IMG/VR virus record: IMGVR_UViG_3300038701_001731
Coordinates: 1-46,624 of that record
DNA from: a virus
DNA length: 46,624 nt
Direction: 5' to 3' (one strand)
Positions within the stretch are counted from its first letter, which is position 1. Each line of letters opens with the position of its first letter. Shown here piece after piece: positions 8,641 to 42,333 of this stretch. Made by a program: the position numbers and the translations under genes. Under the pieces are notes generated by a model. That model did no database searches and was not told the DNA's origin. It worked only from the letters and a program-made list of their open reading frames with translations.

Positions 8641-11600
8641 GGCGTCGTCTCCAGCGTCGTATCGGGCGCATTGATGACTGGCACGCCGCCCTGTTGATCC
8701 CAGCGGCGCAGCGGGGCTGCGGTGCGGCGGGTGTTCCGCTCGACCGCCGTAAGGAGCCGGTTCACGTCACGGCGCAGCGCCTTGATTTCTTCGGAGGCCG
8801 CGCCGCCCATCATGTCTTGCGTTTGCCGGGCCGAGTAGTAGCGCGCCGGGCCGGTGGCCTCGATCTCCGGCCCCTGCTCACCGACGAGGCGAATGCCGCC
8901 CATGTGCAGACCGCCAGCCGCAAAGGCCGGGTATTGGCCCGAGTTCACGGCGTCGGCCAGTCGCGCAAGGTCAAGTGATGTCAGCCGAGACGCGCTCGGG
9001 ATTGCGCCGGCGTTGAAAAGATCCTGTCTTGAGCGCCAGCCCCCAAGGGGGCCTGCGACACCCGGCGTGCCGCCCTGCGTCAAGGACGAGAAGTCCGACG
9101 CGGTATAGGTCGTTGGTGTCGGGGTCGTCGGCGTCGTCCCGCCCGTCGTCGTCGCACCGCCGCCACTGTCCGACGTGCTCGGATCGGAACCGCCCGAAAC
9201 GCTGGTCGAAAAGCCTTGATTGAGCGCGCTCAGAAGCGCGTTTTTCATGATGTTCGTGGCGCTGATCTGATCATCGATCGCGTTGACAACCGTGCCGCGC
9301 ATGGTGACAACGGCGGCCTGCACGTTGTCTGTCGCGACCCGCACCGTGCCGACCTCGTTGAACACGTCGGTTGACCGGGCAAGCTGATTATCCAGCCGCT
9401 CCAGCTGCTGACCGCGCCACACATCGTTGCGGGCAAGCTGGCGCTCAAGAGCGTCAACCGCCGCCTCGTCGGCCGTCATCGTGTCTTCGGCCTGCGCGAG
9501 CAGCTTTTCGATTGTGTCGGAGGTTTTCCCGAACTCGCGGGCATAGGTCAGGAAATCGCTATACAGCGCCTCGCTCGGCTCGCTCACGGCTTGCAGGGCG
9601 CGATCGAGCGCATCCGGGTCATCTACCCCGCCGCGAGCAAGGAAGCCCTCTAGCGTAGCCTGCCCCTGCGCCAGCGAGGCCGCCGAGGCGCCCGGCGCAT
9701 TGAACCGCCGCCCGGTGGACGCCTCAAGAAGCGCCTCGTAGATGTCTGTTGACCCGCGCAGCCGTTGTTCCGCAGCCTGCAACTGATCCTCAAGCGCCCC
9801 GGCGAGATCGCGCGCCGCGTCTTCGATCTGGCTGCGCTCGCGCTGCACCGCCTGCTTGAAGCTGTTGACCGCATCATCATAGGCCGAGCGGGCGGCGCTC
9901 TGGCGCTGCTGTGCCTGCCGGGCCAGCGCGTCGGCGCGCGCCTGCGCATCAGACGCCACCTGATCGGCCAGCCGCTCAAGCTCCACGAAGGCCGGAGCAA
10001 GCTGAATCACGCTTGCCGCGGCGGCCTGATCGCCAGCCGCCAGAAGGTCCGACACAAGCCCACGGAACTCTGCGCGGGTTGCCGGGATCGCCGAGACGCC
10101 AAGCTCGGTAAGCGTCCGCACCAGATCGGTGGCGCCGGCGTCAAGCTGCTCTGCCGCGCTGTAGAACTCGGTAAAGAAGAAGCTGGTGGACTGCTCGAAA
10201 GCCTCAAGCGAGCCGAAAAGCTCCACGAAGGACGAAGCCGCCGCCGCACCCGCAAGCGAGGCATCGTTGAGCGCGAAGCCGAGCGCCTGGAACCGCGTAT
10301 TCACAACGTCGAGATCGTTGGCCAGCCGCAACAGCGTATCGCCCGCCGTTTCGCCCTGTCGCGCGAACTCGGCAAGCTCGGGGATCGTTTCGGCCATGGC
10401 ATCGGCCACACCGCCGATCTGCTCGGCAATGGCCGTTGCAATCTCGCCTTCGCTCAGGCCGCGCGTGCTGATCCGGATTTTCGCGGTGAAGCCCTCGAAA
10501 GCATCCGCACCAATGCCAAGCGCGGCCGCGGCGTCGAACACGCTGTCCCGCACAAGCCCGGCGGCCGCTTCGACCTGCGCGGCGGTGTTGGCGTCCAGAT
10601 CGCTCGTGCGGGTGCTGGTGGATCTGCTCAAACCGAAGAACCGGGTCCGCTGAATTTTCTTGAACCGCTCGGCGAGAATGTCGGTTTCGGAAACTGTGAC
10701 CTGAATGCCCTTATCAAGCGTTTTCGTGCTGCCCACGAGGCCCCGGATGGCCGTTATGGCCAGCGTTGCAGGCCCGGCAATGGCGCCGATAGCCGTGCCA
10801 AGCCCGGCAAGCCCGCCACCCGCAACACTGCCAAGCGCCGTCTTGACCGCGCCGAACGCGCCGCCGATGCCGCCGCCGGTAAGGCCCTGCACCACGCTAC
10901 CGAAGCCGGAACCGATGCTGCCGAAGAAACCTCCTGCCGGCGCGCCGCCGCCACCGCCCATGCCGAAAGCCTGCATCAGCCGCGAGCGCGCAGCCGTGGC
11001 GATCATGTCGGCAATCATGCGCTGGAAGCTGGCCAACACCTGATCCACGAAGCCTTTGAAGTCTTGCAGCCCCCCGGCGATGAAGTCGCCCCACGCGCCA
11101 GCTACGCTGTCAATCGCCGATACCATCGGTGCATCAAGCTGTTTTTGCAGACGATCCGCCTCTTCCTCTGCCTCTGACAAGCTATCCGCAACAGCCCGGC
11201 CCGCGCCGCCACCCGCGCGGCCAAACTCGGTCACCGACTTCGACGCAAGCTGCGTGGAATACTCGATGTCTTCCATGCCGCGACGAATCCGCTCCAGCCG
11301 GAACTCTTCGCTTTCAAACCTCTGGTCGCGCGGGTCGAAAACATCGGCGGTCACACTTCGATCAAGTGCGCCAGAAATTGCCAACGCGCGCTGCAACGAC
11401 ACGCCGAGCTCTTTCGAAAGATCGCGGGCTGCATTGACAGCAGGCGTGATCCCGTTAGCCATGTTGATTGCGGCCAAGGCGCGCGCCACGCGCTCCGCTT
11501 CAGAAATATTCGTCGCGACCTCTTGGGAACTTTTGCCCAATACAACCGTTTCTCCGGTTGCCGATTCCAGCGCCTCGCGCAGCGCATGGATCCGACTTTC

Positions 11601-13223
11601 AAGTGCCTCGTATTCTTCGGGCAAGGCGCCGGAAGCGTCCAGAAGGGCCATTTGCCGGTCGCGCAGATCGCCGATTTGCTCATTGGCCTTTTGCAGGGCG
11701 GGCAGCAGGGCCGAAGGGGCTATTGCGCCGTCCAAGTCTGGCCCGGCGTCAAGAATGGAAATCTGATTGACGATGCGCTGAATGCCGCGCTCAAGCTCCT
11801 GCCATTCGGAACTGGCTTCGATCTGCTGCCTGATCTGCGCTTGGGCTGCGTCAATCGCGGCTTTGGTGTTTTCCGCCAACTCAAGCTGAGCGAGCGCCAC
11901 GTCGCGCGTCAGTGTAGCGCCATTTTGCAGCGGGATCGCGAGGTCATTATACATCGAAAGCTGACCGCTAAACCCGCGATTCGCCGTTTCAATCGCCTCG
12001 GAAAGCTGCCTCTGACTGGTCCCAAGGCCCAGAACGCTATTCTTGAACTCGCCGATCCGGCCGAGCACAAAACCTACCGCATCGACCATTTGCGACACTG
12101 TGCGCACCAGCCCGGTGGCAACCTGTATAACGCCGCGAATAACCGCTGTAAGTCCCGCCTCGCCGAGCGCAAGAATAAGGCCCTGTGCCGCCGATTTAAG
12201 GCTATCAAGATCGCCGCCGAGATTGTCACGCATGGTATCCGCCATTCGTGACGCTTCCCCGTCCACGTCCGACAGGGCCTCGGTGAGATCGCGCAGTCGC
12301 CCGGTTTGACTTGTGAGGGCCAGAACCGCAGGGCCGCCGCGATCCCCGAAAATGGTAAGAGCGTCGGCGGCCGACAGGCCCACATCCGAAAGCCTTTGAA
12401 TGACATCGGCAATATCATTGGTCTGCGGGTTGACCTGCTCCATCGTCACGCCAAGCGCGGAGAGCGTTCTTTCGGCATCCCGCGTCGGATTGGATAGCGA
12501 CGAAAGCACACGCCGGAGGCCGGTGCCGGCGGCGCTGCCCTGAATGCCAGCGTCCGACAAAACGCCCACGGCCGCGGCCGCGTCCGACATTCCAATGCCG
12601 AGCGCGGAAGCGACCGGGCCGACGAAAGACATCGCCGCTCCCAATTGCTCAACATCGGTGTTTGCCCTGCTGGACGCCGCGGCAAGCACATCGGCCACAT
12701 CTGCGGCGTTTTCCGCTTCAATCGAAAAAGCCGACATAATGTTCGAGGAAATATCCGCCGCCCTGCCGAGATCCATCGCCGCAGATGTGGCAAGGTCAAG
12801 AACCGCAGGGATAGACTTCACCGCCTCGGCCGCAGAAAAACCCGCGCGGCCCAAAAACTCCAAGCCCTGTGCGGCCTGCTGCGCGGAAAACTCCGTGGAC
12901 GATCCGAGCTGTTTTGCAACGGCGCTTAGATCGGCAATTTCCTTGTTGGTCGCGCGCGTGATCGCGGCAACCTTGGACATGGCGCGGTCAAAGTCGGCAA
13001 TCGTGATAGCAATGCCCCGAAGCCCCGCCGAGGCGGCTACCAGTGCGCCGACCGCCGCGGCCACCTTGCCGGCCGATGCTGCGGCCGTCTTTCCGCTTTT
13101 TGAGAACCGCCCGAGCTCGTCTCCGGCACGCTTGCCGGTCTTCGCGAACTCGTCAAGATCGCGCTTTGCAGTCCGGGCCTGCCGGCTATCGACCTCGATA
13201 GCAAGAGATGCGATGTCTGTCAT
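8637..13223 (-). CDS. tail tape-measure protein (TP901 family)
   Basis: The 1528-aa protein sets tail length and helps DNA passage. The first ~60 residues give the IEVDSRQARTAKRDLDEF start. Residues ~70-350 are the TP901 core (FDRAMSKVAAITRATNKEI, SSTEFSAQQAAQGLEFLGRA, SNPTRDAERTLSALGV). Glycine- and alanine-rich hydrophobic segments lie around 760-830, followed by long helices. The ATG at 13223 is chosen over a GTG at 13229 because AGAGGG sits seven bases before it. Length would correspond to a tail of roughly 200 nm by the usual 1.5 A per residue rule. Confidence 0.92.
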   Translation of the reverse strand: MTDIASLAIEVDSRQARTAKRDLDEFAKTGKRAGDELGRFSKSGKTAAASAGKVAAAVGALVAASAGLRGIAITIADFDRAMSKVAAITRATNKEIADLSAVAKQLGSSTEFSAQQAAQGLEFLGRAGFSAAEAVKSIPAVLDLATSAAMDLGRAADISSNIMSAFSIEAENAADVADVLAAASSRANTDVEQLGAAMSFVGPVASALGIGMSDAAAAVGVLSDAGIQGSAAGTGLRRVLSSLSNPTRDAERTLSALGVTMEQVNPQTNDIADVIQRLSDVGLSAADALTIFGDRGGPAVLALTSQTGRLRDLTEALSDVDGEASRMADTMRDNLGGDLDSLKSAAQGLILALGEAGLTAVIRGVIQVATGLVRTVSQMVDAVGFVLGRIGEFKNSVLGLGTSQRQLSEAIETANRGFSGQLSMYNDLAIPLQNGATLTRDVALAQLELAENTKAAIDAAQAQIRQQIEASSEWQELERGIQRIVNQISILDAGPDLDGAIAPSALLPALQKANEQIGDLRDRQMALLDASGALPEEYEALESRIHALREALESATGETVVLGKSSQEVATNISEAERVARALAAINMANGITPAVNAARDLSKELGVSLQRALAISGALDRSVTADVFDPRDQRFESEEFRLERIRRGMEDIEYSTQLASKSVTEFGRAGGGAGRAVADSLSEAEEEADRLQKQLDAPMVSAIDSVAGAWGDFIAGGLQDFKGFVDQVLASFQRMIADMIATAARSRLMQAFGMGGGGGAPAGGFFGSIGSGFGSVVQGLTGGGIGGAFGAVKTALGSVAGGGLAGLGTAIGAIAGPATLAITAIRGLVGSTKTLDKGIQVTVSETDILAERFKKIQRTRFFGLSRSTSTRTSDLDANTAAQVEAAAGLVRDSVFDAAAALGIGADAFEGFTAKIRISTRGLSEGEIATAIAEQIGGVADAMAETIPELAEFARQGETAGDTLLRLANDLDVVNTRFQALGFALNDASLAGAAAASSFVELFGSLEAFEQSTSFFFTEFYSAAEQLDAGATDLVRTLTELGVSAIPATRAEFRGLVSDLLAAGDQAAAASVIQLAPAFVELERLADQVASDAQARADALARQAQQRQSAARSAYDDAVNSFKQAVQRERSQIEDAARDLAGALEDQLQAAEQRLRGSTDIYEALLEASTGRRFNAPGASAASLAQGQATLEGFLARGGVDDPDALDRALQAVSEPSEALYSDFLTYAREFGKTSDTIEKLLAQAEDTMTADEAAVDALERQLARNDVWRGQQLERLDNQLARSTDVFNEVGTVRVATDNVQAAVVTMRGTVVNAIDDQISATNIMKNALLSALNQGFSTSVSGGSDPSTSDSGGGATTTGGTTPTTPTPTTYTASDFSSLTQGGTPGVAGPLGGWRSRQDLFNAGAIPSASRLTSLDLARLADAVNSGQYPAFAAGGLHMGGIRLVGEQGPEIEATGPARYYSARQTQDMMGGAASEEIKALRRDVNRLLTAVERNTRRTAAPLRRWDQQGGVPVINAPDTTLETTP

Positions 13224-25536: not shown

Positions 25537-26799
25537 TTACGCCGCAGCCTGCTTGCGCTGCGCCTCTATCTCCGCGAACGTGCGGCCGTCGCATTCCAGC
25601 GTGGCGGCCTGCCCAGTGAAGTCCTGCCAGCGGCGCACGATCACGTCGCAGTAGCGTTCGTCCAGTTCCATGCCGTAGACGTGCCGGCCTTCCATCTCGC
25701 CCGCGATGATGGTCGTGCCCGATCCGCAGAAGGGCTCGTAGACCGCCTGCCCGGGGCTGCTGTTGTTGACGATGGGCCGGCGCATGCACTCAACGGGCTT
25801 CTGCGTGCCGTGGCCGGTCTTGCTCTTGCGGTGGTCGATTTGCCAGAGGGTTGTCTGCTTGCGGTCGCCAGCCCAATGGCCCGTGCCGCCCTTCTTGACG
25901 GCATACCAGCAGCATTCGTGCTGCATGTGGTAATGGCCTCGCCCGATGACGAGGCGAGGCTTGGCCCAGATGATCTGCATTCTCGGCTCGAAACCACTTT
26001 CGCCCAGCGATGCAAAAACCGACACGTTAAGGGGACCGGGTGCGCACCAGACATAGGCGACGTCGCCGGGGAACAGCGCCCACGCCTCGCGCCAGTCGGC
26101 GTTGTCGTCGTTCTGGACCTTGCCTACGGCGCGAGCGCCGTAGGGCTTGCCGTTCGCCCTGTCCGCGCGATTGCGCCAGTCAGGATCGTAGCTCACCCCA
26201 TACGGCGGGTCCGTGACCATCAGGTGCGGCTCCACGCCTGCGAGCAGCGCCGCCACGTCGTGCGCGTCGGTCGAGTCCCCGCAGCGCAGCCGGTGCTTGC
26301 CCAGCAGCCACGTATCGCCGCGCACGGTGATCTCCTGCTCCTGCACCTCAGGCGCGTCGTCGGGATCTGTCAGCCCCTCGGTCTTGTCGGCCAGAAGCCC
26401 GGCCAGCTCCTCGCCCCCGAAGCCGGTCAGGCCGAGGTCGAAGTCGAGGCCCTGCAACTCGCCAAGCTCCACCTTCAGCAGATCGTTGTCCCAGCCAGCG
26501 TTAAGCGCCAGCTTGTTGTCCGCGATGACGTAGGCCCGCTTTTGCGCCTCGGACCAGCCCGCCGCGACCATGCACGGCACGTCCTCGATGCCGAGCCGCT
26601 GCGCCGCCATGATGCGCCCGTGCCCCGCGATGATCCCGCCGTCCTCGTCCACCAGGACGGGCACTGTCCAACCCCACTCGCAAATACTCGCCGCGATCTG
26701 CGCAACCTGCTCGTCGCTGTGAGTCCGGGCATTGCGGGCGTAGGGCACGAGGTCTTTTACCTTGCGCCGCTCCACCTTATCGGCGGGCCAGTCTCCCAT
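25537..26799 (-). CDS. ParB-domain / N6-N4 DNA methyltransferase fusion
   Basis: The 420-aa protein has an N-terminal ParB/Srx-like domain (residues ~10-100, with G-I-I-A-G-H-G-R-I at 55-63) and a C-terminal methyltransferase with D-P-P-Y at 197-200 and F-C-G-S-G-T-T at 357-363. DPPY before FCGSGTT gives the beta-class order. It lies directly before the terminases, where such fusions are common, and may mark DNA against host restriction or time packaging. Its ATG is in a TGATG junction with a 16-codon ORF. Confidence 0.9.
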   Translation of the reverse strand: MGDWPADKVERRKVKDLVPYARNARTHSDEQVAQIAASICEWGWTVPVLVDEDGGIIAGHGRIMAAQRLGIEDVPCMVAAGWSEAQKRAYVIADNKLALNAGWDNDLLKVELGELQGLDFDLGLTGFGGEELAGLLADKTEGLTDPDDAPEVQEQEITVRGDTWLLGKHRLRCGDSTDAHDVAALLAGVEPHLMVTDPPYGVSYDPDWRNRADRANGKPYGARAVGKVQNDDNADWREAWALFPGDVAYVWCAPGPLNVSVFASLGESGFEPRMQIIWAKPRLVIGRGHYHMQHECCWYAVKKGGTGHWAGDRKQTTLWQIDHRKSKTGHGTQKPVECMRRPIVNNSSPGQAVYEPFCGSGTTIIAGEMEGRHVYGMELDERYCDVIVRRWQDFTGQAATLECDGRTFAEIEAQRKQAAA

Positions 26800-28332: not shown

Positions 28333-30423
28333 TCATTCGGTCACATCTGCGGGATTGTTCGGGCCGGGTTTCAGGTGCCAGACCATGCGCCCGGTGCGCT
28401 TGTCATGGTGCTGTTCACGCGCCAGGACGCCGGTTTCGAGCCATGCCTTGATGACGGTCTTGACCTTGGCCTCTCCGGCCTTCTCGGATGTGTCTATGCC
28501 GAGCACCTCACCAATCAGGTGGCCTGCCCAGCTCTTTGACTGGCCGCTCTCGCGAGCGCGATCCGGGGCTGTTACGAGGGCGCGACGCACGGCGATGGCG
28601 CTGTCTGGCGACAGGTCGGTGAAGGCATCGGGCCACTGCCACGGCACCACGACACCGACGCTTTCGCCGTTCGGGGTGGTGACGCTGATCTTCTCGAACC
28701 AGCGCGCATAATCGCTCGACGGGGGCGCAAGGTTGCCCTCGATGTCTCCGACCTGAAAGTGAGAACGATGGTCCTCAAGGCCCGCCTTGGCGGCTTCTTC
28801 GGTGCTCATGGGCACCAGCAGTCGATTGAACCGGGCGGTGCCGCGGAGTGCGCTACCGCCACGCATGTCGTCAATGGAAGCGCGAATGCCGGGCTGCATC
28901 TTTCGGGTGTGATGAATCAATCCGATTGCAAGTTGGCATTTCGCCGAGAAGCGCCGAAAGCGCGCGCCAAGAATGCGCATGACTTCGTTCGTTTCAGGGC
29001 TTCTGGAAAGGTCTTGAAGCGGGTCAAGCACCATGCAATCAATTCGAGCGGCGAGGCATTTTTCCTCCATCGCGGCGAATTGAGATTCGTTGATTTCGCC
29101 CTCTTGGCCGGAAATGATGTAAAATCCGTCCTCTCCGATACCTGAATGAACGGCTAGGTTCCCGCTAATGTCATTCTGAGAAAGTCCGTAGTGCTGCAAA
29201 ATTGCGGCGACACGGTTCTTGATCGTCCAGATATCGTCCTCCGCATTGTAGTAATAAACTTTCAAGGGGGCTCTTTCTTCCCCTGTCAGGAGCCCTTTTC
29301 CGGACGCCATATCGACGCATTCAATGAGTGCCAGAAGCGATTTGCCGACTTTCGGCGGGGCGGCGGTGACGCTGGTGTATCCGCGGGCGTAGAAGCGATT
29401 GTAAAGGTATTCGACGCGCGGCAGGCTTTCGAGGTCTTCACTTTCCCAGAAGTCGATTTCGAAGCGCGCTGCGGCCTGCGGGGCTTCGGTTCGCATCGCC
29501 CGGATAAGCGCGCCGAGATCTTCGTCTGTGGCGTCGGCTGCATCCCATTTTTCGGGGCGCGTGTGCGGCACCGCGAGGATCGACACGGCAAGGACGCCCT
29601 CCGCTTCAAGGTGCGGTTTAAGGCGTTCGGCGTATGCGCGGCCTGCGTTGTCATTGTCGGGCCAAATCAGAATCTTGCGCCCGCGCAGCGGTGTCCAGTC
29701 TACCTGTTCCAGCTTGGTATTGGCGCCGCCCATGGCCGTGGTCGCGTCGATGTTCTGAGCGATCAGAGCGTCTGCGGCTTTTTCGCCTTCGCAAAGCACG
29801 ATCTCGGGCGCGCGCACGATGTTTGGCAAATTGTAGAGCGGGCGCACGTCGGGGTGGGTGTATTTGCGCTTGGCTACATCCCAGGGCTGAAAGGTTTTCT
29901 TGCGCTCGCCGTCCTGTGTCCAATCGTATCGCTCGATCTCGGCGATAAGGCGGCCGTTGGCATCCTGGTATCTGTAGACGGCCGTGGGGGCACCCCATGC
30001 CTCGCCGCCTTTCGGGCTCTTGCGCTTGGGCGCCCGGCGCGGGGTGTTGATGGTAGCGCCGGTGTATTCGGCGGCGTCCTTCAGGGTCTCGCGGAAGCTG
30101 GCGCATCCTCGGGCGGTGCGCCACAGATCGAAGATGTCGCCCCCGTCTCCGGTGGCGAAATCATGCCACAGGCCAGCCTTTTCACCGCCGAGCTCAACGC
30201 TCAGGCTTTCGCCTGCCTCGCCTTGCACGCTGCCGATGTAGAACTTGCGGCCTTTGGGGTCGGCAAAGCCGTTCGGATAGAGGTAGCCCAGAACGCTCTC
30301 CAAGCGCGCTGTGAGGGCCTTGTGCACCTCGTCGCGATCGAACCCCTTGGCAGCCCATTCCGGCGCTTCTGTCGGCACCTGTGCGGCCTGTGTGGGCGCG
30401 TCGTTGAAGTCCTGCCAGATCAC
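28333..30423 (-). CDS. primase-helicase (Toprim plus RecA/RepA-type ATPase)
   Basis: The GTG at 30423 is in a GTGA overlap with the nuclease stop and gives 696 aa; a GTG three codons upstream is possible. Residues ~60-125 hold a DNA-primase-like zinc-less N-domain (LWHDFATGDGGDIFDLW). Toprim spans ~207-272, with V-L-C-E-G-E-K-A-A-D-A-L and I-W-P-D-N-D-N-A-G. The AAA_25/RepA-like ATPase begins with A-P-P-K-V-G-K-S at 355-362, then V-L-D-P-L-Q-D-L as Walker B. It would prime and unwind at the fork. Confidence 0.9.
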   Translation of the reverse strand: MIWQDFNDAPTQAAQVPTEAPEWAAKGFDRDEVHKALTARLESVLGYLYPNGFADPKGRKFYIGSVQGEAGESLSVELGGEKAGLWHDFATGDGGDIFDLWRTARGCASFRETLKDAAEYTGATINTPRRAPKRKSPKGGEAWGAPTAVYRYQDANGRLIAEIERYDWTQDGERKKTFQPWDVAKRKYTHPDVRPLYNLPNIVRAPEIVLCEGEKAADALIAQNIDATTAMGGANTKLEQVDWTPLRGRKILIWPDNDNAGRAYAERLKPHLEAEGVLAVSILAVPHTRPEKWDAADATDEDLGALIRAMRTEAPQAAARFEIDFWESEDLESLPRVEYLYNRFYARGYTSVTAAPPKVGKSLLALIECVDMASGKGLLTGEERAPLKVYYYNAEDDIWTIKNRVAAILQHYGLSQNDISGNLAVHSGIGEDGFYIISGQEGEINESQFAAMEEKCLAARIDCMVLDPLQDLSRSPETNEVMRILGARFRRFSAKCQLAIGLIHHTRKMQPGIRASIDDMRGGSALRGTARFNRLLVPMSTEEAAKAGLEDHRSHFQVGDIEGNLAPPSSDYARWFEKISVTTPNGESVGVVVPWQWPDAFTDLSPDSAIAVRRALVTAPDRARESGQSKSWAGHLIGEVLGIDTSEKAGEAKVKTVIKAWLETGVLAREQHHDKRTGRMVWHLKPGPNNPADVTE

Positions 30424-31148
30424 CCCCAGCACACCCCCTGGTAGGGGCAGAACCGGCAGACAAAGGATGCCGGGTCATCTGTCGCGCGGGGCAGTGTTTC
30501 GCCGTGATCGCAGGCGGTGAGCACCTGCGCGGCCTTGTCGATGCTGGCTTGTGCGAGCTCTTGATCGAAGGGCACAAGCTCAAGGTGTATTTCCATCGTA
30601 TCGGCATTAAGCGCGGTGAAATATGCGGGATGCTCGGCGAGCTGCATGTATGCCTGATATGTAGCGAGCTGCGCCGCGTATTTGGGATAGGCTTTGGCCA
30701 CGCCGTGCCTTGCGAGTTGTGCGAAGCCCTTGGCGCCGAGCACCTTGTTTTCCCATAGGGCCGGAGCCTTGAAGCCTTCCGGAGCCTGCACGATCACGCC
30801 GTCGATATGGCCGCGAAACCTGCCGTCGCAGTCATCAAAGCCGAATTGATGCCCGTTTGGCTTTTGGGTTTTCAGGTGGAAGCCGGCGGCTCTAATCCAC
30901 TCGGCCATCCAGTCTTCGCCTTGGTGCCCGCGGTGGAAGATTCGGCGCGTGCGCGCCGAGAAGCCTGCGCCTTCATCCTTCGGGGCGTTCTGGTATTCGT
31001 ATTGCAGACGCCGCAGGCACGGTTCTCCGACAGCGGAGCCGCCGAGATAATCGCGCGGGCGCTCTTGCCGCTCATCAATCGCGGCGTCGATTAGCGCGAC
31101 AAAGCGATCAGACAGCGTAGCGCGGGAGTTGAAGTCGGACCAACTCAA
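30420..31148 (-). CDS. Cas4/RecB-like PD-(D/E)XK nuclease with Fe-S cysteines
   Basis: The 242-aa protein has C44, then C231-x2-C234-x5-C240 at the C-terminus (C-R-F-C-P-Y-Q-G-V-C), the four-cysteine layout of Cas4/AddB Fe-S nucleases. The catalytic core is G-H-I-D116-G-V-I and W-E133-N-K135. YPKYAAQLATYQAYMQLAE is the usual Q-x-x-x-Y helix. It likely resects DNA ends for the Sak4-type recombination genes upstream. Confidence 0.82.
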   Translation of the reverse strand: MSWSDFNSRATLSDRFVALIDAAIDERQERPRDYLGGSAVGEPCLRRLQYEYQNAPKDEGAGFSARTRRIFHRGHQGEDWMAEWIRAAGFHLKTQKPNGHQFGFDDCDGRFRGHIDGVIVQAPEGFKAPALWENKVLGAKGFAQLARHGVAKAYPKYAAQLATYQAYMQLAEHPAYFTALNADTMEIHLELVPFDQELAQASIDKAAQVLTACDHGETLPRATDDPASFVCRFCPYQGVCWG

Positions 31149-32308: not shown

Positions 32309-32581
32309 CTATGCTGCGTCGGGGTTGGTGAGCTCTTCCACGCGGATGACGATCGTTTCGCCTTCCACGTCAAAGCGTGACAGGTCGCCGAGCTCTGCTT
32401 CGGCGGCCTTGCGGTCGAACCGCTTGGTCTTGCGCTTGCTTATCGCCGCGATTGCGTAGTCTCCGAAGTTGTCGAGAGCACCGGACCTGATGCCATCCTT
32501 CAACTCGGCTTCGCGCGCTTGGAGTTGCTTGATCCGTTCGCGGATGAAAAGAAGCTCATCTGCCGGCTTTTTGTTGCTCAT
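32309..32581 (-). CDS. hypothetical coiled-coil protein in recombination cluster
   Basis: The 90-aa protein opens with a helix (LLFIRERIKQLQAREAELKD), then YAIAAISKRKTKRFDRKAAE and an acidic end. It lies between the Sak4-like ATPase and the SSB-like gene. Similar small proteins sit beside phage recombinases; the role is unknown. Confidence 0.55.
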   Translation of the reverse strand: MSNKKPADELLFIRERIKQLQAREAELKDGIRSGALDNFGDYAIAAISKRKTKRFDRKAAEAELGDLSRFDVEGETIVIRVEELTNPDAA

Positions 32582-33411
32582 GCCGCATTCTCCTGTTTAG
32601 GAATGTCGGTCACGAGCGCATCATGCCGCGCGCCGCTCCTGATCTTCTCGAAAAGCTCGCCGAGGTGCGGCTTTTCCATCTGGTCGAGCCGGCCGGAGCG
32701 ATCCTTTGCCGGATAGCCCCACGGGTTCGGGCTGGTGCAGATCAGCGCGCGAAACTTCGCCTCATCGGCCTGCACTTCCTGGTAGGTGATGACTTGATCA
32801 ACGATGCCGGGGAGCTCGCGCCCGACCTTGCTGCCCTCGATTTGCGGCACCCACTGAGTGCGGCCATAGTCGTCTTCCTTCTGATCGAGGATCCCGACGA
32901 AGATCACGTTGCGGTCGCGGGCGTGTTGAAGGTGCGACAGCCATGCCAGCATTTCCCGGCCGTGCAGGCCGTAAGCGCCGCGGGTGTCCGGCTTGCCGGT
33001 CTTTTCGGACTTGGCCTCGGGCTGGCCCTGCGCCCACTGGAAGCACAAGCGCCCGGCGACCGTAATGGAGTCGATAAAGATCGTGCGATACTGCGCCAAC
33101 GCTTCGGCCGCGCCGTCAGTGTTGACGTGGGCGAAATGTGCGGCGCTGTAAGGCTGCTCGTCGCGCAGCGCCGGGTTCGGGCCGGAAATCAGCGCCGCGA
33201 GCGTGCGGCAGTCATCCCAGGTGCGCGGGCGCACCGTGTCGCCGGGCCAGCCTTCAACCGCGAGATCGCCCGCTTCGAGGTCGAAAAAAAGCGTCTCGCC
33301 GGGTGGTAGCGTTTTCAAGAGGGTTGTTTTTCCGATGCCGGAGGGACCGAAAAGGGCAGCCTTGATGCCCCCTCGCTCCTTCATCCGATCGGATGCCTTG
33401 ATGATTTGCAT
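32578..33411 (-). CDS. Sak4-like RecA-fold ATPase (AAA_24)
   Basis: The 277-aa protein has Walker A G-P-S-G-I-G-K-T-T at 22-30, a following F-F-D-L-E-A-G-D, and Walker B T-I-F-I-D-S at 110-115. GLHGREMLAWLSHLQHARDR and V-I-F-V-G-I-L are RecA-core strands. Such phage ATPases act in single-strand annealing or strand exchange, usually with a phage SSB and a nuclease, all present here. The C-terminus is short and acidic. Confidence 0.85.
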   Translation of the reverse strand: MQIIKASDRMKERGGIKAALFGPSGIGKTTLLKTLPPGETLFFDLEAGDLAVEGWPGDTVRPRTWDDCRTLAALISGPNPALRDEQPYSAAHFAHVNTDGAAEALAQYRTIFIDSITVAGRLCFQWAQGQPEAKSEKTGKPDTRGAYGLHGREMLAWLSHLQHARDRNVIFVGILDQKEDDYGRTQWVPQIEGSKVGRELPGIVDQVITYQEVQADEAKFRALICTSPNPWGYPAKDRSGRLDQMEKPHLGELFEKIRSGARHDALVTDIPKQENAA

Positions 33412-35301: not shown

Positions 35302-35715
35302 ATGACCGACCACCACTCCATGTTCATGATCGAGGCCGCGGGCCGCACCGGCTGGGAGGTCGCGGATACCGGCTATGTCGGTTTCCCGCACTTCGCCAGC
35401 ACCGAAAACGAAGCGGCCCGCTGTGTCGTCGCGATTGCCGATGCCGGCGCCGAGACTGCGTTGCGCATCTGGCACGCCCAGACCGATGCGCCGCTGCGCG
35501 ATGTCACCGAGGATGTGATGCGCCGCGCCGCCGAGCTGTGGGCCGACACTCACGCCGAGGACGGCTACCGCGAGGGCTACGTACCCTCGGCGGATGATCT
35601 GCTGGCGCCGTGGGGCGCCGACATGCTGATCCGCGCCCGGATCGCCGAGATCGCCGAGGACGCCGACCATGTGCGCACCGAACGCGCGCTGCTGGGTGTG
35701 GGGGCGTGGGCATGA
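35302..35715 (+). CDS. first gene of rightward operon, hypothetical
   Basis: The ATG at 35302 has GGAGG five bases before it, giving 137 aa. It is acidic with W, H and D-rich parts (AGRTGWEVADTGYVGFPHFA, RAAELWADTHAEDGYREGY). No family is recognised. As the first rightward gene under the switch it could be an early host-takeover or anti-defence protein; this is only by place. Confidence 0.6.
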   Translation: MTDHHSMFMIEAAGRTGWEVADTGYVGFPHFASTENEAARCVVAIADAGAETALRIWHAQTDAPLRDVTEDVMRRAAELWADTHAEDGYREGYVPSADDLLAPWGADMLIRARIAEIAEDADHVRTERALLGVGAWA

Positions 35716-36443
35716 CCGTGATCCGTGAAACCGCCTACACCCTGCGCACCTGCAAAGCCGACATGACGAGCCACGCCGGCTTTATCTGGCCGCGCCGGGG
35801 CTGGGTGGAGGCGCCCGACTGGAAGCCGACCAAGGTATTCGGCAACGGGCTGCACGGCTTTCTTAACGGCGAGGGAGACGGCTTCCTCGCAGACTGGTCG
35901 CCCGATGCCGTGTGGCTGGTGGCGCGCATCGAGGAATACGTCGATCTCGGCGGCAAGGTGAAATTCCCGCGCGCCAAGGTGATGTTCGCCGGGTCGCGTG
36001 AAGACGCCACGCAGAAAATACATAAGCTTTACCCAGGCGCCGCTGTGATCGGGATTTCGCTCACCGGCGGCGACGGCAGCACGCTCACCGGCGGCCACTG
36101 CAGCACGCTCACCGGCGGCGACGGCAGCACGCTCACCGGCGGCCACCGCAGCACGCTCACCGGCGGCCACCGTAGCACGCTCACCGGCGGCGACGGCAGC
36201 ACGCTCACCGGCGGCCACCGCAGCACGCTCACCGGCGGCGACGGCAGCACGCTCACCGGCGGCCACCGTAGCACGCTCACCGGCGGCCACCGCAGCACGC
36301 TTTGCATCTGGTGGCACGACGGCACCCGCCGCCGACTGGCCGTCGCCTATGTCGGCGAGGGCGGCATCAAGCCCGACACGCCCTATCGCATCGATGACAG
36401 CGGCAATTTCGTGGAGGCCACATGGTCCGTGCTTTTCTCGTAA
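35712..36443 (+). CDS. octapeptide-repeat protein (LTGG[DH]xST), predicted beta-solenoid
   Basis: The ATG at 35712 in an ATGA overlap gives 243 aa. Residues 1-115 are a non-repeat domain (KVFGNGLHGFLNGEGDGFLA, VKFPRAKVMFAG). Residues ~117-196 are ten exact-frame LTGG[DH][GRC]ST units, then CIWWHDGTRRRLAVAYVGE. The strict 8-residue period with T, G and S fits a narrow beta-solenoid. Repeat proteins of this general type occur in phages with no known role. Reading upstream to 35610 is not needed. Confidence 0.75.
   Translation: MTVIRETAYTLRTCKADMTSHAGFIWPRRGWVEAPDWKPTKVFGNGLHGFLNGEGDGFLADWSPDAVWLVARIEEYVDLGGKVKFPRAKVMFAGSREDATQKIHKLYPGAAVIGISLTGGDGSTLTGGHCSTLTGGDGSTLTGGHRSTLTGGHRSTLTGGDGSTLTGGHRSTLTGGDGSTLTGGHRSTLTGGHRSTLCIWWHDGTRRRLAVAYVGEGGIKPDTPYRIDDSGNFVEATWSVLFS
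36060..36299 (+). repeat. ten 24-bp tandem repeats encoding LTGG[DH]xST
   Basis: Ten units of 24 bp with almost no change except at codons 5-6 (GAC-GGC, CAC-CGC, CAC-CGT, CAC-TGC). Near-identity at silent sites points to recent expansion or gene conversion. Confidence 0.9.
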
Positions 36444-36514: not shown

Positions 36515-36886
36515 ATGACGGAATCGAAAATCGAACGCGGCGAGCACTGGCGCACGCGAGCCGGCAACGAGGTTCGCATTCTCGCGACGGATGCGGACGG
36601 CGAGCGGCCGATTGTTGGGCAGATCGCGGGCACGCGCGGCGTGTTCGTTTGGTGTGCCAATGGGGGGTGGAGAGACAATCACAGTGAGCATGTCAACGAT
36701 CTCGTGGAACTGCTGCCCGAGGAGCACGTCTACGAGCGGTGGGCCAATATCTACCCCGACAATTTTGCCACGAACTACCTGACGCGGGGGGATGCAGACG
36801 CCTTTGCTGGCGAACACCGCATCGCCTGCCTGCACATCAAGATCCCTTACCGCGCAGGCGACGGGCTGAACGATGGGGGAGTCTGA
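36515..36886 (+). CDS. hypothetical protein of rightward operon
   Basis: The 123-aa protein has EHWRTRAGNEVRILATDADG and GGWRDNHSEHVNDLVELLPE, then Y-E-R-W-A-N-I-Y-P-D. The N-terminal part looks like the small beta domain (gene-regulated 'W-R-T-R-x-G' type) seen in many uncharacterised phage proteins. GGGAG lies before the start. Confidence 0.6.
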   Translation: MTESKIERGEHWRTRAGNEVRILATDADGERPIVGQIAGTRGVFVWCANGGWRDNHSEHVNDLVELLPEEHVYERWANIYPDNFATNYLTRGDADAFAGEHRIACLHIKIPYRAGDGLNDGGV

Positions 36887-36887
36887 G

Positions 36888-37022
36888 ATGACCCACACCT
36901 TCACGCTTTCCGAACTGCGCGCCCGCCAGCGCGAGCGCATCCGCTATCGGCTGTGGCCGCTGGTGCCGCTGCTGATCGGCGCGGCGCTGGCCGTGGCCGC
37001 TATGCTGGGGGTCGCGGGGTGA
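36888..37022 (+). CDS. 44-residue membrane peptide
   Basis: ATG at 36888 with GGGGGAG before it reads MTHTFTLSELRARQRERIRY, then a membrane helix (WPLVPLLIGAALAVAAMLGV). The stop overlaps the methyltransferase start as TGATG. The DNA for its last 15 codons is the left copy of the 52-bp direct repeat. It could be a small inner-membrane protein. Confidence 0.55.
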   Translation: MTHTFTLSELRARQRERIRYRLWPLVPLLIGAALAVAAMLGVAG

Positions 37023-37024
37023 TG
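36973..37024 (+). repeat. 52-bp direct repeat, left copy
   Basis: TGATCGGCGCGGCGCTGGCC and what follows to GGGGTGATG at 37016-37024 matches 37580-37631 at 51 of 52 bases (C/A at position 33). It covers the 3' end of the 44-residue peptide gene and the TGATG junction with the next gene. Confidence 0.9.
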
Positions 37025-37582
37025 CGCTTTGCCTACGCTGACCCTCCCTATTTGGGCTGTGGTGCGCTTTACGCGGCGCACCACCCGAAAGCGATGGCGT
37101 GGGACGACCCCCAGACGCACCGCCAGTTGGTCGAGCGACTGATGGACGAATACGCGGATGGCTGGGCGGTTTCTTTGCACGAGCCGTCGCTGCGTTTTTA
37201 CCTGTCTATCGTGCCCGAGGCGGCAAGAGTCGCCTCTTGGGTTAAGCCGTTCGCGATTTACAAGCCGAATGTTACGCGGGCGTGGACTTGGGAGCCGGTG
37301 ATTTTCCACGGCGGGAGACCGATTCCGCGCAGCGCGCCTACCTGGCGGGACCATGTGCAGGCAGTAGCGGAGCCGATCACGTTGCGCCGAGGCCTTACAG
37401 GGGCGAAGCCTGACGCGGTTTGTGACTGGATATTGACCGGCCTCGGATTTCAGCCCGGCGACGAGATAGATGATCTTTTCCCCGGCACAGGAGCGATGGG
37501 GCGCGCTGTGGCTCGCAGAAACGGAGATTTCGACCAAATGAACACAGACCTTTTCAAACACGTTTCGGAGTCGGGCCAATGA
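37022..37582 (+). CDS. DNA adenine/cytosine-N4 methyltransferase, orphan
   Basis: The 186-aa protein begins A-Y-A-D-P-P-Y (DPPY at 7-10), with F-P-G-T-G at 153-157 near the end, so the catalytic motif precedes the SAM motif (beta-like order). W-A-V-S-L-H-E-P and H-G-G-R-P-I-P-R are other core parts. No restriction partner is seen. It probably modifies phage DNA against host nucleases. It is exactly bounded by the two copies of the direct repeat. Confidence 0.8.
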   Translation: MRFAYADPPYLGCGALYAAHHPKAMAWDDPQTHRQLVERLMDEYADGWAVSLHEPSLRFYLSIVPEAARVASWVKPFAIYKPNVTRAWTWEPVIFHGGRPIPRSAPTWRDHVQAVAEPITLRRGLTGAKPDAVCDWILTGLGFQPGDEIDDLFPGTGAMGRAVARRNGDFDQMNTDLFKHVSESGQ

Positions 37583-37631
37583 TCGGCGCGGCGCTGGCCG
37601 TGGCCGCTATGATGGGGGTCGCGGGGTGATG
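37580..37631 (+). repeat. 52-bp direct repeat, right copy
   Basis: The second copy starts in the stop of the methyltransferase and ends in the start of the next gene. It still encodes a 16-codon remnant (MIGAALAVAAMMGVAG, 37579-37629) of the membrane peptide end, in an ATGA/TGATG frame. Recombination between copies would delete 607 bp and restore one junction. Confidence 0.9.
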
Positions 37632-37823
37632 GGGGACACTGACGAAATCCAGCGATTCATCGATGAATACGGCGTGGCCGTGACTGGCATTTCATTTCTC
37701 AAGCAGATCGCCAATGCCGCGGATCAGTGCGATCCGGACGCGGGCATCGTGATCCGCGGCCCCACGCTTTACAGCCTGCTCGTGTGGCTGCGGGCGTATG
37801 AAGAAGCGGCGGAGGACGGGTGA
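37629..37823 (+). CDS. hypothetical small helical protein
   Basis: The ATG at 37629 gives 64 aa (DTDEIQRFIDEYGVAVTGIS, then YSLLVWLRAYEEAAEDG). Two helices, no known family. It is coupled by TGATG to both neighbours. Confidence 0.55.
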   Translation: MGDTDEIQRFIDEYGVAVTGISFLKQIANAADQCDPDAGIVIRGPTLYSLLVWLRAYEEAAEDG

Positions 37824-37990: not shown

Positions 37991-38202
37991 TGGCCGGCGG
38001 GTGGCCTGAGGGGCGCCAGCGACCTGACGGTCTGGCACGCGGCGTAGCGCGCGGTGGCCGCAGGCAATGCGTCATCAAGATGGACCAGGATCAATTTGAA
38101 GAGGTGCGGGCGCTTGCCGAGGCCGAGGGCATCAGCATGGCGCAGCAGCTCCGGCTGCTGATCGAATGGGGTCTGGAAGCTGCATCGGACCCCGACGCAT
38201 GA
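37990..38202 (+). CDS. ribbon-helix-helix-like protein
   Basis: The ATG at 37990 gives 70 aa. A basic G/R-rich N-terminus leads to RRQCVIKMDQDQFEEVRALA and EAEGISMAQQLRLLIEWGLE, the strand-helix-helix of CopG/Arc-type DNA-binding proteins. It may regulate the rightward operon. Confidence 0.65.
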   Translation: MAGGWPEGRQRPDGLARGVARGGRRQCVIKMDQDQFEEVRALAEAEGISMAQQLRLLIEWGLEAASDPDA

Positions 38203-38255
38203 CCGCCCCCGCGAGCCTCGCCCCCGGAGGGCGGATGAAAGGAGAGACGACATGA
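38199..38255 (+). CDS. 18-codon ORF linking two genes
   Basis: ATG at 38199 overlaps the stop of the RHH gene (ATGA) and its TGA overlaps the start of the next (ATGA). It reads MTAPASLAPGGRMKGETT. The ending KGETT/GETT recurs at other gene ends of this operon, so it may be a remnant left by gene loss. Confidence 0.3.
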   Translation: MTAPASLAPGGRMKGETT

Positions 38256-38650
38256 AAAGTGAGATCATTGAGCGCCTGCTGGCAAGGGTGGCCGAGCTGT
38301 CGGCGGAATTTGAAGAGATGCGCCACGAGCGCGACGAGGCCCGAGCACGGGCGGCGGCTGCGTATGAGGCGGCGGCACAGGTCTGCGACGTGATGCAATG
38401 CGCCGACGCCGCGAGGGTCATTCGAGGCGGCATCCGCGCGCCCGACGAGGACGCCCTCACCGCAGCGCTGGAGAAGGCGCGGGCCGAGGAAAGGAAGCGG
38501 TGTGCGGAGGTTGTCGAGAGCTTTGCAAAACAGGCTGACGCTTACGCTGAGTTGGCCGATTTGCAGCCATTCAAGAGGCTTTCCGAGCAAGACGCTAAAA
38601 TTCTGAGAATTGTCGCTCGCGCGATCCGCAACACGGGAGAGACGACATGA
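38252..38650 (+). CDS. coiled-coil protein, paralogue family A
   Basis: The 132-aa protein starts with a long helix (EIIERLLARVAELSAEFEEM, then RDEARARAAAAYEAAAQ). D-A-L-T-A-A-L-E-K-A-R-A-E-E-R-K-R-C-A follows. The RDEARARAAAAYEAAA block and the ALxxAR-EER-CA block recur in the genes at 40000 and, more weakly, 41812. The end is NTGETT. Function unknown. Confidence 0.6.
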   Translation: MKSEIIERLLARVAELSAEFEEMRHERDEARARAAAAYEAAAQVCDVMQCADAARVIRGGIRAPDEDALTAALEKARAEERKRCAEVVESFAKQADAYAELADLQPFKRLSEQDAKILRIVARAIRNTGETT

Positions 38651-38877: not shown

Positions 38878-39206
38878 CCCTACTCACCGACAGTGCGCCG
38901 AAGGCTCGCAAGCACCATCGCTGCGACGATTGCGGCGGATGGATCGCGCCGGGCGCGGTCTACCGGCTATCGAAGATACAGGATGACGGGACAGTGTACC
39001 CGTGGCGTCAGCACCTGGACTGCTTCGCAATGGCCCACGATGTCGAAATAGCTGACGGCGACTACTACCACGACGGAAGGCCGCCGCTTTGCCAAGACGA
39101 GGGCGTATTGGATGATCTGGACCTCTGGCGCGGGCGCTATCCCCACGTCGTCTGCCGGATCGAGCTACAGCAGCAGCTCTATTGGGCGAGGAAGGGCGAC
39201 GAATGA
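38874..39206 (+). CDS. zinc-binding hypothetical protein
   Basis: The 110-aa protein has H-H-R-C-D-D-C-G-G-W-I at the start and W-R-Q-H-L-D-C-F, a likely C2HC/HxC zinc site, then YYHDGRPPLCQDEGVLDDLD. Similar small proteins are common in Rhodobacterales prophages, with no known task. It ends ARKGDE and overlaps both neighbours by ATGA. Confidence 0.6.
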   Translation: MTLLTDSAPKARKHHRCDDCGGWIAPGAVYRLSKIQDDGTVYPWRQHLDCFAMAHDVEIADGDYYHDGRPPLCQDEGVLDDLDLWRGRYPHVVCRIELQQQLYWARKGDE

Positions 39207-39472
39207 CAGCGCCGCGCGACATCGCCGCGATGCTGCATGGGCTGGCACGGCTGCACGTCGCGCTCGGCCGCATGGAGGGCGCCGGGGTCAGCACGCGCGG
39301 CTGGAGCTACAACGGCCTCGTAGATGGCGTGCTTGCATTGTCCCTGCCCGACAGTGGCCACGAGGCCCGCTCCATCGCCACGCTTTTCGACACGCTGGAC
39401 GGTGTGGCCGAAATCGGCCCGGCCGCCGTCGAGCACCTGCACCAGTTGCGGAGGATGGGAGAGACGACATGA
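39203..39472 (+). CDS. hypothetical small protein
   Basis: The 89-aa protein begins MTAPRDIAAMLHGLARLHVA and ends RRMGETT. No family is recognised. The bases around its start (GGAAGGGCGACGAATGACAG and following) are identical to those at 40416 onward, before another gene. Confidence 0.55.
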   Translation: MTAPRDIAAMLHGLARLHVALGRMEGAGVSTRGWSYNGLVDGVLALSLPDSGHEARSIATLFDTLDGVAEIGPAAVEHLHQLRRMGETT

Positions 39473-39834: not shown

Positions 39835-40003
39835 CAGGTATGAAAGCATGACGAGCCACGACCTCGTGGAGGAGATGGTCGCATGGCAAGCCGTGGCCGA
39901 CGCGCCGAAAGGGCCGGGTGGGCCGTCGAATGGTGCCCGCAAAGAAGCAATTCGCCAAATGCGCTTGGCTGAGGCGTGGTATCACAGAAAGGCCAAGCGA
40001 TGA
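39827..40003 (+). CDS. hypothetical 58-residue protein
   Basis: ATG at 39827 after AGGAGG. It is a short helical, basic-ended protein (SMTSHDLVEEMVAWQAVADA, AIRQMRLAEAWYHRKAKR). No family is known. Confidence 0.5.
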   Translation: MTDRYESMTSHDLVEEMVAWQAVADAPKGPGGPSNGARKEAIRQMRLAEAWYHRKAKR

Positions 40004-40428
40004 CTGACACCCCCGACACCACCCGCAAGGAAGCGCCTGAGCGCATCCTGTGCATCAAAGACCTAGCGGCCGAGCGGGACGAAGCCCGCGCACGGGCGGC
40101 GGCTGCGTATGAGGCAGCGGCCCGGCGTGCTCAATACTACGAGCGCATCCTCCCCCGCGCGGATCAGTCCGCCTACGGCTTGGCCCGCGAAGAGGCCGCC
40201 TCGGACATCTCCGCTCTCGCCACCGACGCCGAGCGGGACGCCCTCACCGCCGCGCTGGAACGGGCGCGGACCGAGGAAAGGGAGGCGTGTGCGAAGGTGG
40301 CGGAGGACGCCATAATAGACGGTCTGGAGGGGCTGTATGATCTAGCCCATCCATACGATCAAGGGTGGGTCCGGTCCGCAAAACGCATCACCGCCACCAT
40401 CCGCGCGCGGGGGAAGGGCGACGAATGA
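40000..40428 (+). CDS. coiled-coil protein, paralogue family A
   Basis: The 142-aa protein contains ERDEARARAAAAYEAAARRA and D-A-L-T-A-A-L-E-R-A-R-T-E-E-R-E-A-C-A, nearly the same blocks as the gene at 38252, with a different middle. The ATG shares an ATGA junction. It ends RARGKGDE. Shared blocks with a replaced centre suggest recombination between paralogues. Confidence 0.6.
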   Translation: MTDTPDTTRKEAPERILCIKDLAAERDEARARAAAAYEAAARRAQYYERILPRADQSAYGLAREEAASDISALATDAERDALTAALERARTEEREACAKVAEDAIIDGLEGLYDLAHPYDQGWVRSAKRITATIRARGKGDE

Positions 40429-40598
40429 CAGCGCCGCGCCTGACGCCTTCGGAGATCGAGCGCACCGTCTCGGCCGCCAAGCGCGCGGGCGCGGTGCGCG
40501 TGCGGATCGAGGCGCACGGGCGCACTTATCAGTTTGACCTGCGCGAAGAGACCGCCGAACCTGCCGATGAATTTGATTTGGTGGACATGAGGCGATGA
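40425..40598 (+). CDS. hypothetical 57-residue protein
   Basis: The 57-aa protein has a helix (TPSEIERTVSAAKRAGA) then strands (VRVRIEAHGRTYQFDL) and an acidic end. This helix-plus-strand pattern, directly before the integrase and coupled to it by ATGA, is like small excisionase-adjacent proteins, but no winged helix is visible. Confidence 0.55.
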   Translation: MTAPRLTPSEIERTVSAAKRAGAVRVRIEAHGRTYQFDLREETAEPADEFDLVDMRR

Positions 40599-41811: not shown

Positions 41812-42333
41812 ATGAGTGACGATACCGACACGACCCCCGAGGCGGCGGCGCGGCTGCTGATAACGTGGCTGGATCAGGAAGCGGAGGCCATGCTGGGCCC
41901 GGCCGGGTCTGATTACTCACGCGAGCCCCTTGCGGTTTATAGCGAATGCCGGACGGCACTGCGCGCCCTCTCTGCCCGCGTGGCCGAGTTGGAGGCCGAG
42001 CGCGACGAAGCCCTGAACCAGCTAGACAGCGAACGCCACGCTCGTGAAACCATAGAGCGCCGGGCGGCGCAGTTTTTAGCAGAGCGCGACGAGGCCCTCA
42101 CGCGGGCGGGAGCGGCGTATGAGGTGACGGCGAGCGTCATGTCCGACGCGCGGGCCAACGCGCGGGCCGACGAGCGCAGGAGGGTTCTGGAGGAGGTTTC
42201 GGAAGCGTGGTCACTGGCGATCGAGAACGGCGTGGCGAGCTTGAATCAACCGGCCGCCGAAGAGCTAAAGCGCAGGTATCCGCACTTGGTGGCGTTCTGT
42301 GAATGGCTGGGCAAGATGGAGGGCGACGGATGA
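41812..42333 (+). CDS. coiled-coil protein, paralogue family A (distant)
   Basis: The 173-aa protein has LSARVAELEAERDEALNQLD and L-A-E-R-D-E-A-L-T-R-A-G-A-A-Y-E-V-T-A, related to the ERDEARARAAAAYEAA block of the genes at 38252 and 40000. The C-terminus (YPHLVAFCEWLGKM) is a separate small part. AGGAGG precedes it. Confidence 0.6.
   Translation: MSDDTDTTPEAAARLLITWLDQEAEAMLGPAGSDYSREPLAVYSECRTALRALSARVAELEAERDEALNQLDSERHARETIERRAAQFLAERDEALTRAGAAYEVTASVMSDARANARADERRRVLEEVSEAWSLAIENGVASLNQPAAEELKRRYPHLVAFCEWLGKMEGDG

Follow-up and report, generated by a model that had tools for sequence, protein, structure and literature searches.

The locus under study lies on the plus strand of the window, by which we mean the whole 46,624-nt stretch of viral DNA analysed here (IMG/VR record IMGVR_UViG_3300038701_001731), within an operon of overlapping genes. 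A gene without assigned function (36515–36886), whose end is similar by eye to that of a gene in the relative IMGVR_UViG_3300037780_000117 (L002), is followed by a gene for a 44-aa membrane-like peptide (36888–37022), a gene for a putative beta-class N6-adenine DNA methyltransferase of 186 aa (37022–37582), which has DPPY near its N-terminus and FPGTG near its C-terminus, and a gene for a 64-aa protein (37629–37823) about 60% identical to its counterpart in the relative. A homologue of the peptide was also found in the relative (E = 2.6e-4). Pfam and PHROGs gave no nuclease match for the genes adjoining the methyltransferase, and PADLOC gave no match for the four other operon proteins scanned. 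A tandem array of 24-bp units was observed at 36040–36310, inside the gene at 35712–36443 (repeated STLTGG[HD]), and in the relative the peptide homologue lies beside a repeat-rich gene of another kind, which is alanine-rich and has 12–15 bp units.

The methyltransferase gene is framed by a 52-nt direct repeat, of which the left copy (36973–37024, plus strand) consists of the 3′ end of the peptide gene and a TGATG overlap, and the right copy (37580–37631, plus strand) takes the methyltransferase stop codon (TGA, 37580–37582) as its first bases. The copies, spaced by 607 bp, are identical at 51 of 52 positions, with C at 37005 against A at 37612 as the sole mismatch, and the repeat reaches 47 nt into the peptide gene, so that the last 16 codons of this acceptor gene are the duplicated target. 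The ATGs at 37022 and 37629 each form a TGATG overlap with the stop before them. The repeat as described in the first-pass annotation is real and far above chance, given a score of 49 at the locus, whereas none of 100 dinucleotide-preserving shuffles scored above 17. The right copy indeed holds the 16-codon remnant of the peptide that had been reported there, an ORF at 37579–37629 (plus strand) encoding MIGAALAVAAMMGVAG, of which the ATG overlaps the methyltransferase stop as ATGA and the 3′ end overlaps the next gene as TGATG. The proposal that recombination between the copies would remove exactly the methyltransferase and recreate TGATG was reproduced in silico: loop-out takes away 607 bp and only the methyltransferase, leaving a complete 44-aa peptide with one L/M difference and an unchanged TGATG for the gene that follows. 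These observations support a cassette of a single gene at a stop/start overlap that is, in principle, cleanly losable. The insert is the methyltransferase alone, and no transposase, integrase or inverted ends were detected in the 561-bp cassette. RNA structure predicted at the two junctions was no better than that of shuffled sequence. Composition was considered as a horizontal signature and set aside as not diagnostic, since the GC3 of the methyltransferase (0.69), while below that of most neighbours, falls inside the range of the operon.

No significant match in Pfam, PHROG or NCBIfam was obtained with the methyltransferase protein by itself, and RsrI was retrieved as a weak sequence match. 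Relatives with 32–44% identity are encoded in ten named phages, and others at 98 IMG/VR places, from which 80 loci were kept as the family set. An alignment of 64 members shows full conservation of D7, P8 and Y10 and near-complete conservation of P9, F153, P154 and G157. A model predicted from the family alignment (mean pLDDT 91) gave the beta-class N6-adenine DNA methyltransferases M.BceJIV, M.MboIIA and CcrM as best PDB matches in Foldseek (E = 1e-5 to 3e-4). Like these enzymes, the protein has DPPY (motif IV) ahead of FxGxG (motif I), with a predicted methyltransferase fold; unlike them and RsrI, it is only 186 aa long, about 15% identical and under the Pfam cut-off. The earlier assignment as a methyltransferase is thus sustained by motifs and predicted fold, and the gene belongs to an unnamed phage family whose predicted fold resembles that of the beta-class N6-adenine enzymes. 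In Xanthomonas phage PBR31 (L004, 3992–4557) the homologue is split across two frames and only its first half is annotated, owing either to disruption of the gene or to an error in sequencing. Among 65 family loci the upstream neighbours fall into 58 and the downstream neighbours into 59 unrelated groups, suggesting that the family moves as a single gene.

The geometry seen in the window recurs at other family loci. In one phage (L086) a 22/22 repeat joins an upstream gene ending in LLAELEK, followed by TAATG, with a methyltransferase ending in LLAELEKQG. In Microbacterium phage Wyvern (L006) the sequence CGGCGGTGATCTCGTGA occurs once at the methyltransferase start and once at its stop (17/17), VIS is the C-terminal sequence of both the methyltransferase and the upstream gene product, and both junctions are GTGA overlaps. 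At a further locus (L018) an imperfect 50-nt repeat, which has its source in upstream non-coding DNA, forms the C-terminus of the methyltransferase. A 30/31 repeat at L027 encloses two genes and was ranked as a weaker case, and the repeats at L017 and L021 were set aside because they are of low complexity or encode coiled coils. With the window excluded, 5 of 63 methyltransferase loci had a repeat within 600 nt, as did 1 of 183 other genes (p = 0.005), and exact junctions sharing at least 11 nt occurred at 7 of 70 and 5 of 290, respectively (p = 0.003), where cross-paired junctions predict 0.22; because these uncorrected p values shift with zone and threshold from 0.003 to 0.065, we take the tests as supportive and not as proof. 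Control genes also share junctions above the cross-pair expectation. A flanking repeat is missing in most family members (about 90%) at the sensitivity used, and none was found around the phrog_757 methyltransferases of ten named phages.

In phages Isperia and OscarSo, homologues of the two neighbours of the Wyvern gene overlap directly, without a methyltransferase gene between them, and the Isperia flanks are 73–77% identical to those of Wyvern. On sequence comparison, this is the presence and absence of a family gene at a stop/start overlap with preserved neighbours, although the pre-insertion target of Wyvern is unreadable base by base because the Isperia junction has diverged, and the gene may have been lost from Isperia and OscarSo rather than gained by Wyvern. 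Isperia gp42 (L107, 824–2071), annotated with 415 aa, seems over-long, and the real upstream frame lies at 1200–1529, stop to stop. The idea that gp42 is one gene split by the insertion was rejected, as a separate, real upstream frame meets the downstream start in an ATGA overlap.

Relatives of the window itself were sought in viral scans with the methyltransferase, the downstream gene, the peptide DNA, anchor genes and a tail gene as queries, and one useful relative was obtained, the contig L002 introduced above, the tail genes of which share 77–85% DNA identity with those of the window. Its gene order is peptide homologue, small CxxxC gene and downstream homologue; the slot holds neither a member of the methyltransferase family nor a repeat. 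The presence of a different gene indicates that the slot is variable. Genome scans yielded nothing useful, a search of the locus against named phage and plasmid DNA returned no relative, and a small match (L003) proved a chance hit to an unrelated contig. No deletion form or exact empty site of the window phage was found in the collection scans. Of the two kinds of relative that the first-pass annotation had pointed to, one with another gene at the same junction was hence recovered and one with the deletion was not; likewise, its claim that an overlapping operon can gain or lose one gene is borne out by the variable slot and by Wyvern compared to Isperia and OscarSo, but not by a deletion form of the window phage. 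As no relative with the exact empty site is at hand, insertion is distinguished from other routes only indirectly for the window phage.

The relative is informative in another respect. On its 39-kb contig, the two strongest direct repeats that are not of low complexity each flank a methyltransferase: a repeat of 54 nt, 34 of them perfect, surrounds a D12 methyltransferase (PF02086, phrog_56), and a 25/25 repeat surrounds a phrog_757 methyltransferase. These two unrelated DNA methyltransferase genes (L002 5195–6800; contig 11291–12900) appear to be nested within a single small acceptor ORF. When the sequences on either side of the phrog_757 gene are joined, an intact 31-codon ORF overlapping the next gene results, so that the two methyltransferases look like successive insertions into one small acceptor.

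Shared junction sequences are also a wider property of the window operon, in which in-register matches of 14 nt or more occur in 8 of 153 start-codon pairs compared to 3 of 3081 control ATG pairs (permutation p = 0.0002), although common ribosome-binding sites may account for part of the short matches. A perfect 28-nt stop/start boundary repeat (39190–39217 and 40412–40439, both on the plus strand) brackets a 1222-bp block of small genes, and recombination across it would delete the block and restore the same junction. The boundary sequence at 38186–38212 (plus strand) matches 26 of 27 nt at 11278–11304 of the relative's contig, where the upstream genes differ. The junction GACGGATGAGTGACGA was noticed three times at stop/start overlaps, at 42319, 42654 and 42993, with a spacing of about 340 bp, possibly another row of single-gene cassettes. 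Two genes of the same operon, at 38252–38650 and 40000–40428, are paralogous, share the ERDEARARAAAAYEAA motif and are 81–92% identical in stretches.

Since related genes in unrelated phages display the same pattern, the arrangement in the window resembles a scar left by the insertion of one gene. We therefore favour, with a probability of about 0.68, the reading that insertion of the methyltransferase gene at the stop/start overlap created a second copy of the upstream gene's 3′ end. We infer the order of events, the engine and the occurrence of loss as follows. A solitary DNA methyltransferase gene would enter the early operon where the membrane-peptide gene overlaps the gene that follows it, one join falling at the end of the peptide gene and the other about 50 bases back, inside it, so that its 3′ end would be duplicated behind the new gene. 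The peptide would stay whole, and the next gene would keep its native 50 bases and TGATG, read after the 16-codon remnant, whose translation would preserve the start context of that gene. Because the operon offers the incoming gene no spare bases, a right join downstream of the left join would cut a neighbour, while a right join upstream of it would duplicate the overlap and let both neighbours survive. As only duplicating joins would spare both neighbours, selection may keep the duplicating events, which would account for the repeat being always neighbour sequence, for its variable length and for the preserved start context of the next gene. Recombination between direct repeats is expected to cause loss through the repeat, and the empty site could be restored by recombination between the two copies or by replication slippage. 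The likely engine would be single-strand annealing or illegitimate joining at short matches; for the former, the window encodes on its minus strand a Sak4-like single-strand annealing protein (32578–33411; phrog_124, E = 2.9e-47) and, as its candidate partner, a Cas4-domain exonuclease (30420–31148; phrog_1990, E = 5.8e-69), a module that is plausible in this role.

Whether the same route serves more broadly is a tentative matter: we regard it as rather doubtful that, in several unrelated families, solitary phage methyltransferase genes travel singly as bare cassettes that prefer stop/start overlaps and duplicate the end of the upstream gene. If so, they would have a mobility route without a mobile element and a ready-made exit by repeat recombination, and the nested methyltransferases of the relative, two in one acceptor, would represent successive rounds.

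Other explanations may be weighed against the insertion reading. The shared operon junctions raise the possibility of a general exchange at gene boundaries, in which many stop/start junctions of the operon carry one of a few interchangeable short sequences, genes are swapped by homologous recombination at these, and the 52-nt repeat is an extreme case with no specific tie to methyltransferases. The excess among start-codon pairs, the 28/28 repeat around another gene block, the 26/27 boundary with the relative despite differing upstream genes, the third set at 42319, 42654 and 42993, and the junction sharing of control genes above cross-pairs all fit this view. The window repeat, however, enters the upstream gene by 47 nt, far past a boundary motif, and methyltransferase loci exceed control genes in both comparisons given above, so we hold general exchange to be unlikely as the explanation. 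It is improbable that the peptide gene was first duplicated in tandem and the DNA between the copies then filled or replaced. Such a history would likewise leave two tails, and the copies are indeed one base apart, but the duplication is confined to the 3′ tail, with the right copy opening precisely on the methyltransferase stop, and L086 and Wyvern repeat this tail-only arrangement, which random duplication does not predict; no relative with two full peptide genes appeared in the searches for relatives.

The suggestion in the first-pass annotation of on/off anti-restriction content, that is, a repeat maintained for switching methylation in phage populations, is speculation and, in our estimate, very improbable. 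A near-perfect repeat that has hardly diverged and loops out cleanly in silico would suit a switch, but the collection scans contain no deletion form, the repeats differ from case to case in length and sequence as insertion scars should, and no cognate restriction target is known. The window phage moreover keeps a second DNA methyltransferase, a ParB–methyltransferase fusion on the minus strand (25537–26799; phrog_498, E = 8.7e-144; PF01555). The 52-nt repeat is thus better read as an insertion scar than as a dedicated switch. A flanking duplication also resembles the target-site duplication of a transposable element or site-specific cassette, an origin that we find scarcely credible for a 561-bp insert lacking transposase, integrase and inverted ends, given also that the repeat length varies among cases (17, 22 and 52 nt, and an imperfect 50 nt).

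It is debated how new genes enter tightly overlapping phage operons without damage to their neighbours, and two models of mosaicism stand, targeted recombination at boundaries and illegitimate joining at random with subsequent selection (PMC3233612, PMC3945230). Duplication of a neighbour's end that spares the start of the next gene offers a concrete and testable route, and Wyvern with the gene, together with Isperia and OscarSo without it, forms a laboratory phage set in which gain and loss become measurable. In bacteria, restriction-modification genes have been described to insert with long, variable target duplications and without a mobile element, according to papers that cite Nobusato et al. 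2000 and Furuta et al. 2010 as the sources (PMC3874152, PMC3031569, PMC1643837), and the duplications are placed in the order of 100 bp in the account of one of them (PMC3874152). No phage case was found in the literature, in which the two original studies were covered through these citing papers. The window shares with this process a methyltransferase-bearing insert, direct target copies of variable length and no mobile element, its target being duplicated on both sides of the insert (51/52 over 52 nt), as is also the case in L086 and Wyvern. Unlike the published bacterial units, it has a solitary phage methyltransferase in an operon of overlapping genes, and its 52 nt coincide with the 3′ end of the neighbour plus the stop/start overlap. 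The old idea of modification genes moving with long target duplications would thereby be extended to phages.

The window also has features of the phage boundary-sequence mosaic, namely exchange at gene boundaries, stop/start sequences common to non-homologous genes and a phage annealing protein; its boundary sequences are common beyond chance (p = 0.0002), and that at 38186–38212 is retained in the relative (26/27) despite non-homologous upstream genes. Classical boundary sequences are, in contrast, common to phages at module edges, whereas the main repeat of the window is an internal duplication in one genome. Relaxed recombination by phage recombinases has been reported (PMC3945230), Sak4 proteins work with their SSB in single-strand annealing (PMC5928155), and proteins of this type have been linked to phage mosaicism (PMC5499656, PMC3945230); the Sak4-like protein and Cas4-domain exonuclease place the window phage alongside such systems, as candidates for a role in the cassette. 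Judged from its sequence, the insert appears to differ from a phage moron, as start/stop overlaps on both sides would leave no room for a promoter or terminator of its own. Taken together, the cassette resembles a combination, a solitary phage methyltransferase with a target duplication at a stop/start overlap, which joins the long target duplication of bacterial modification genes to the boundary exchange of phage genomes.
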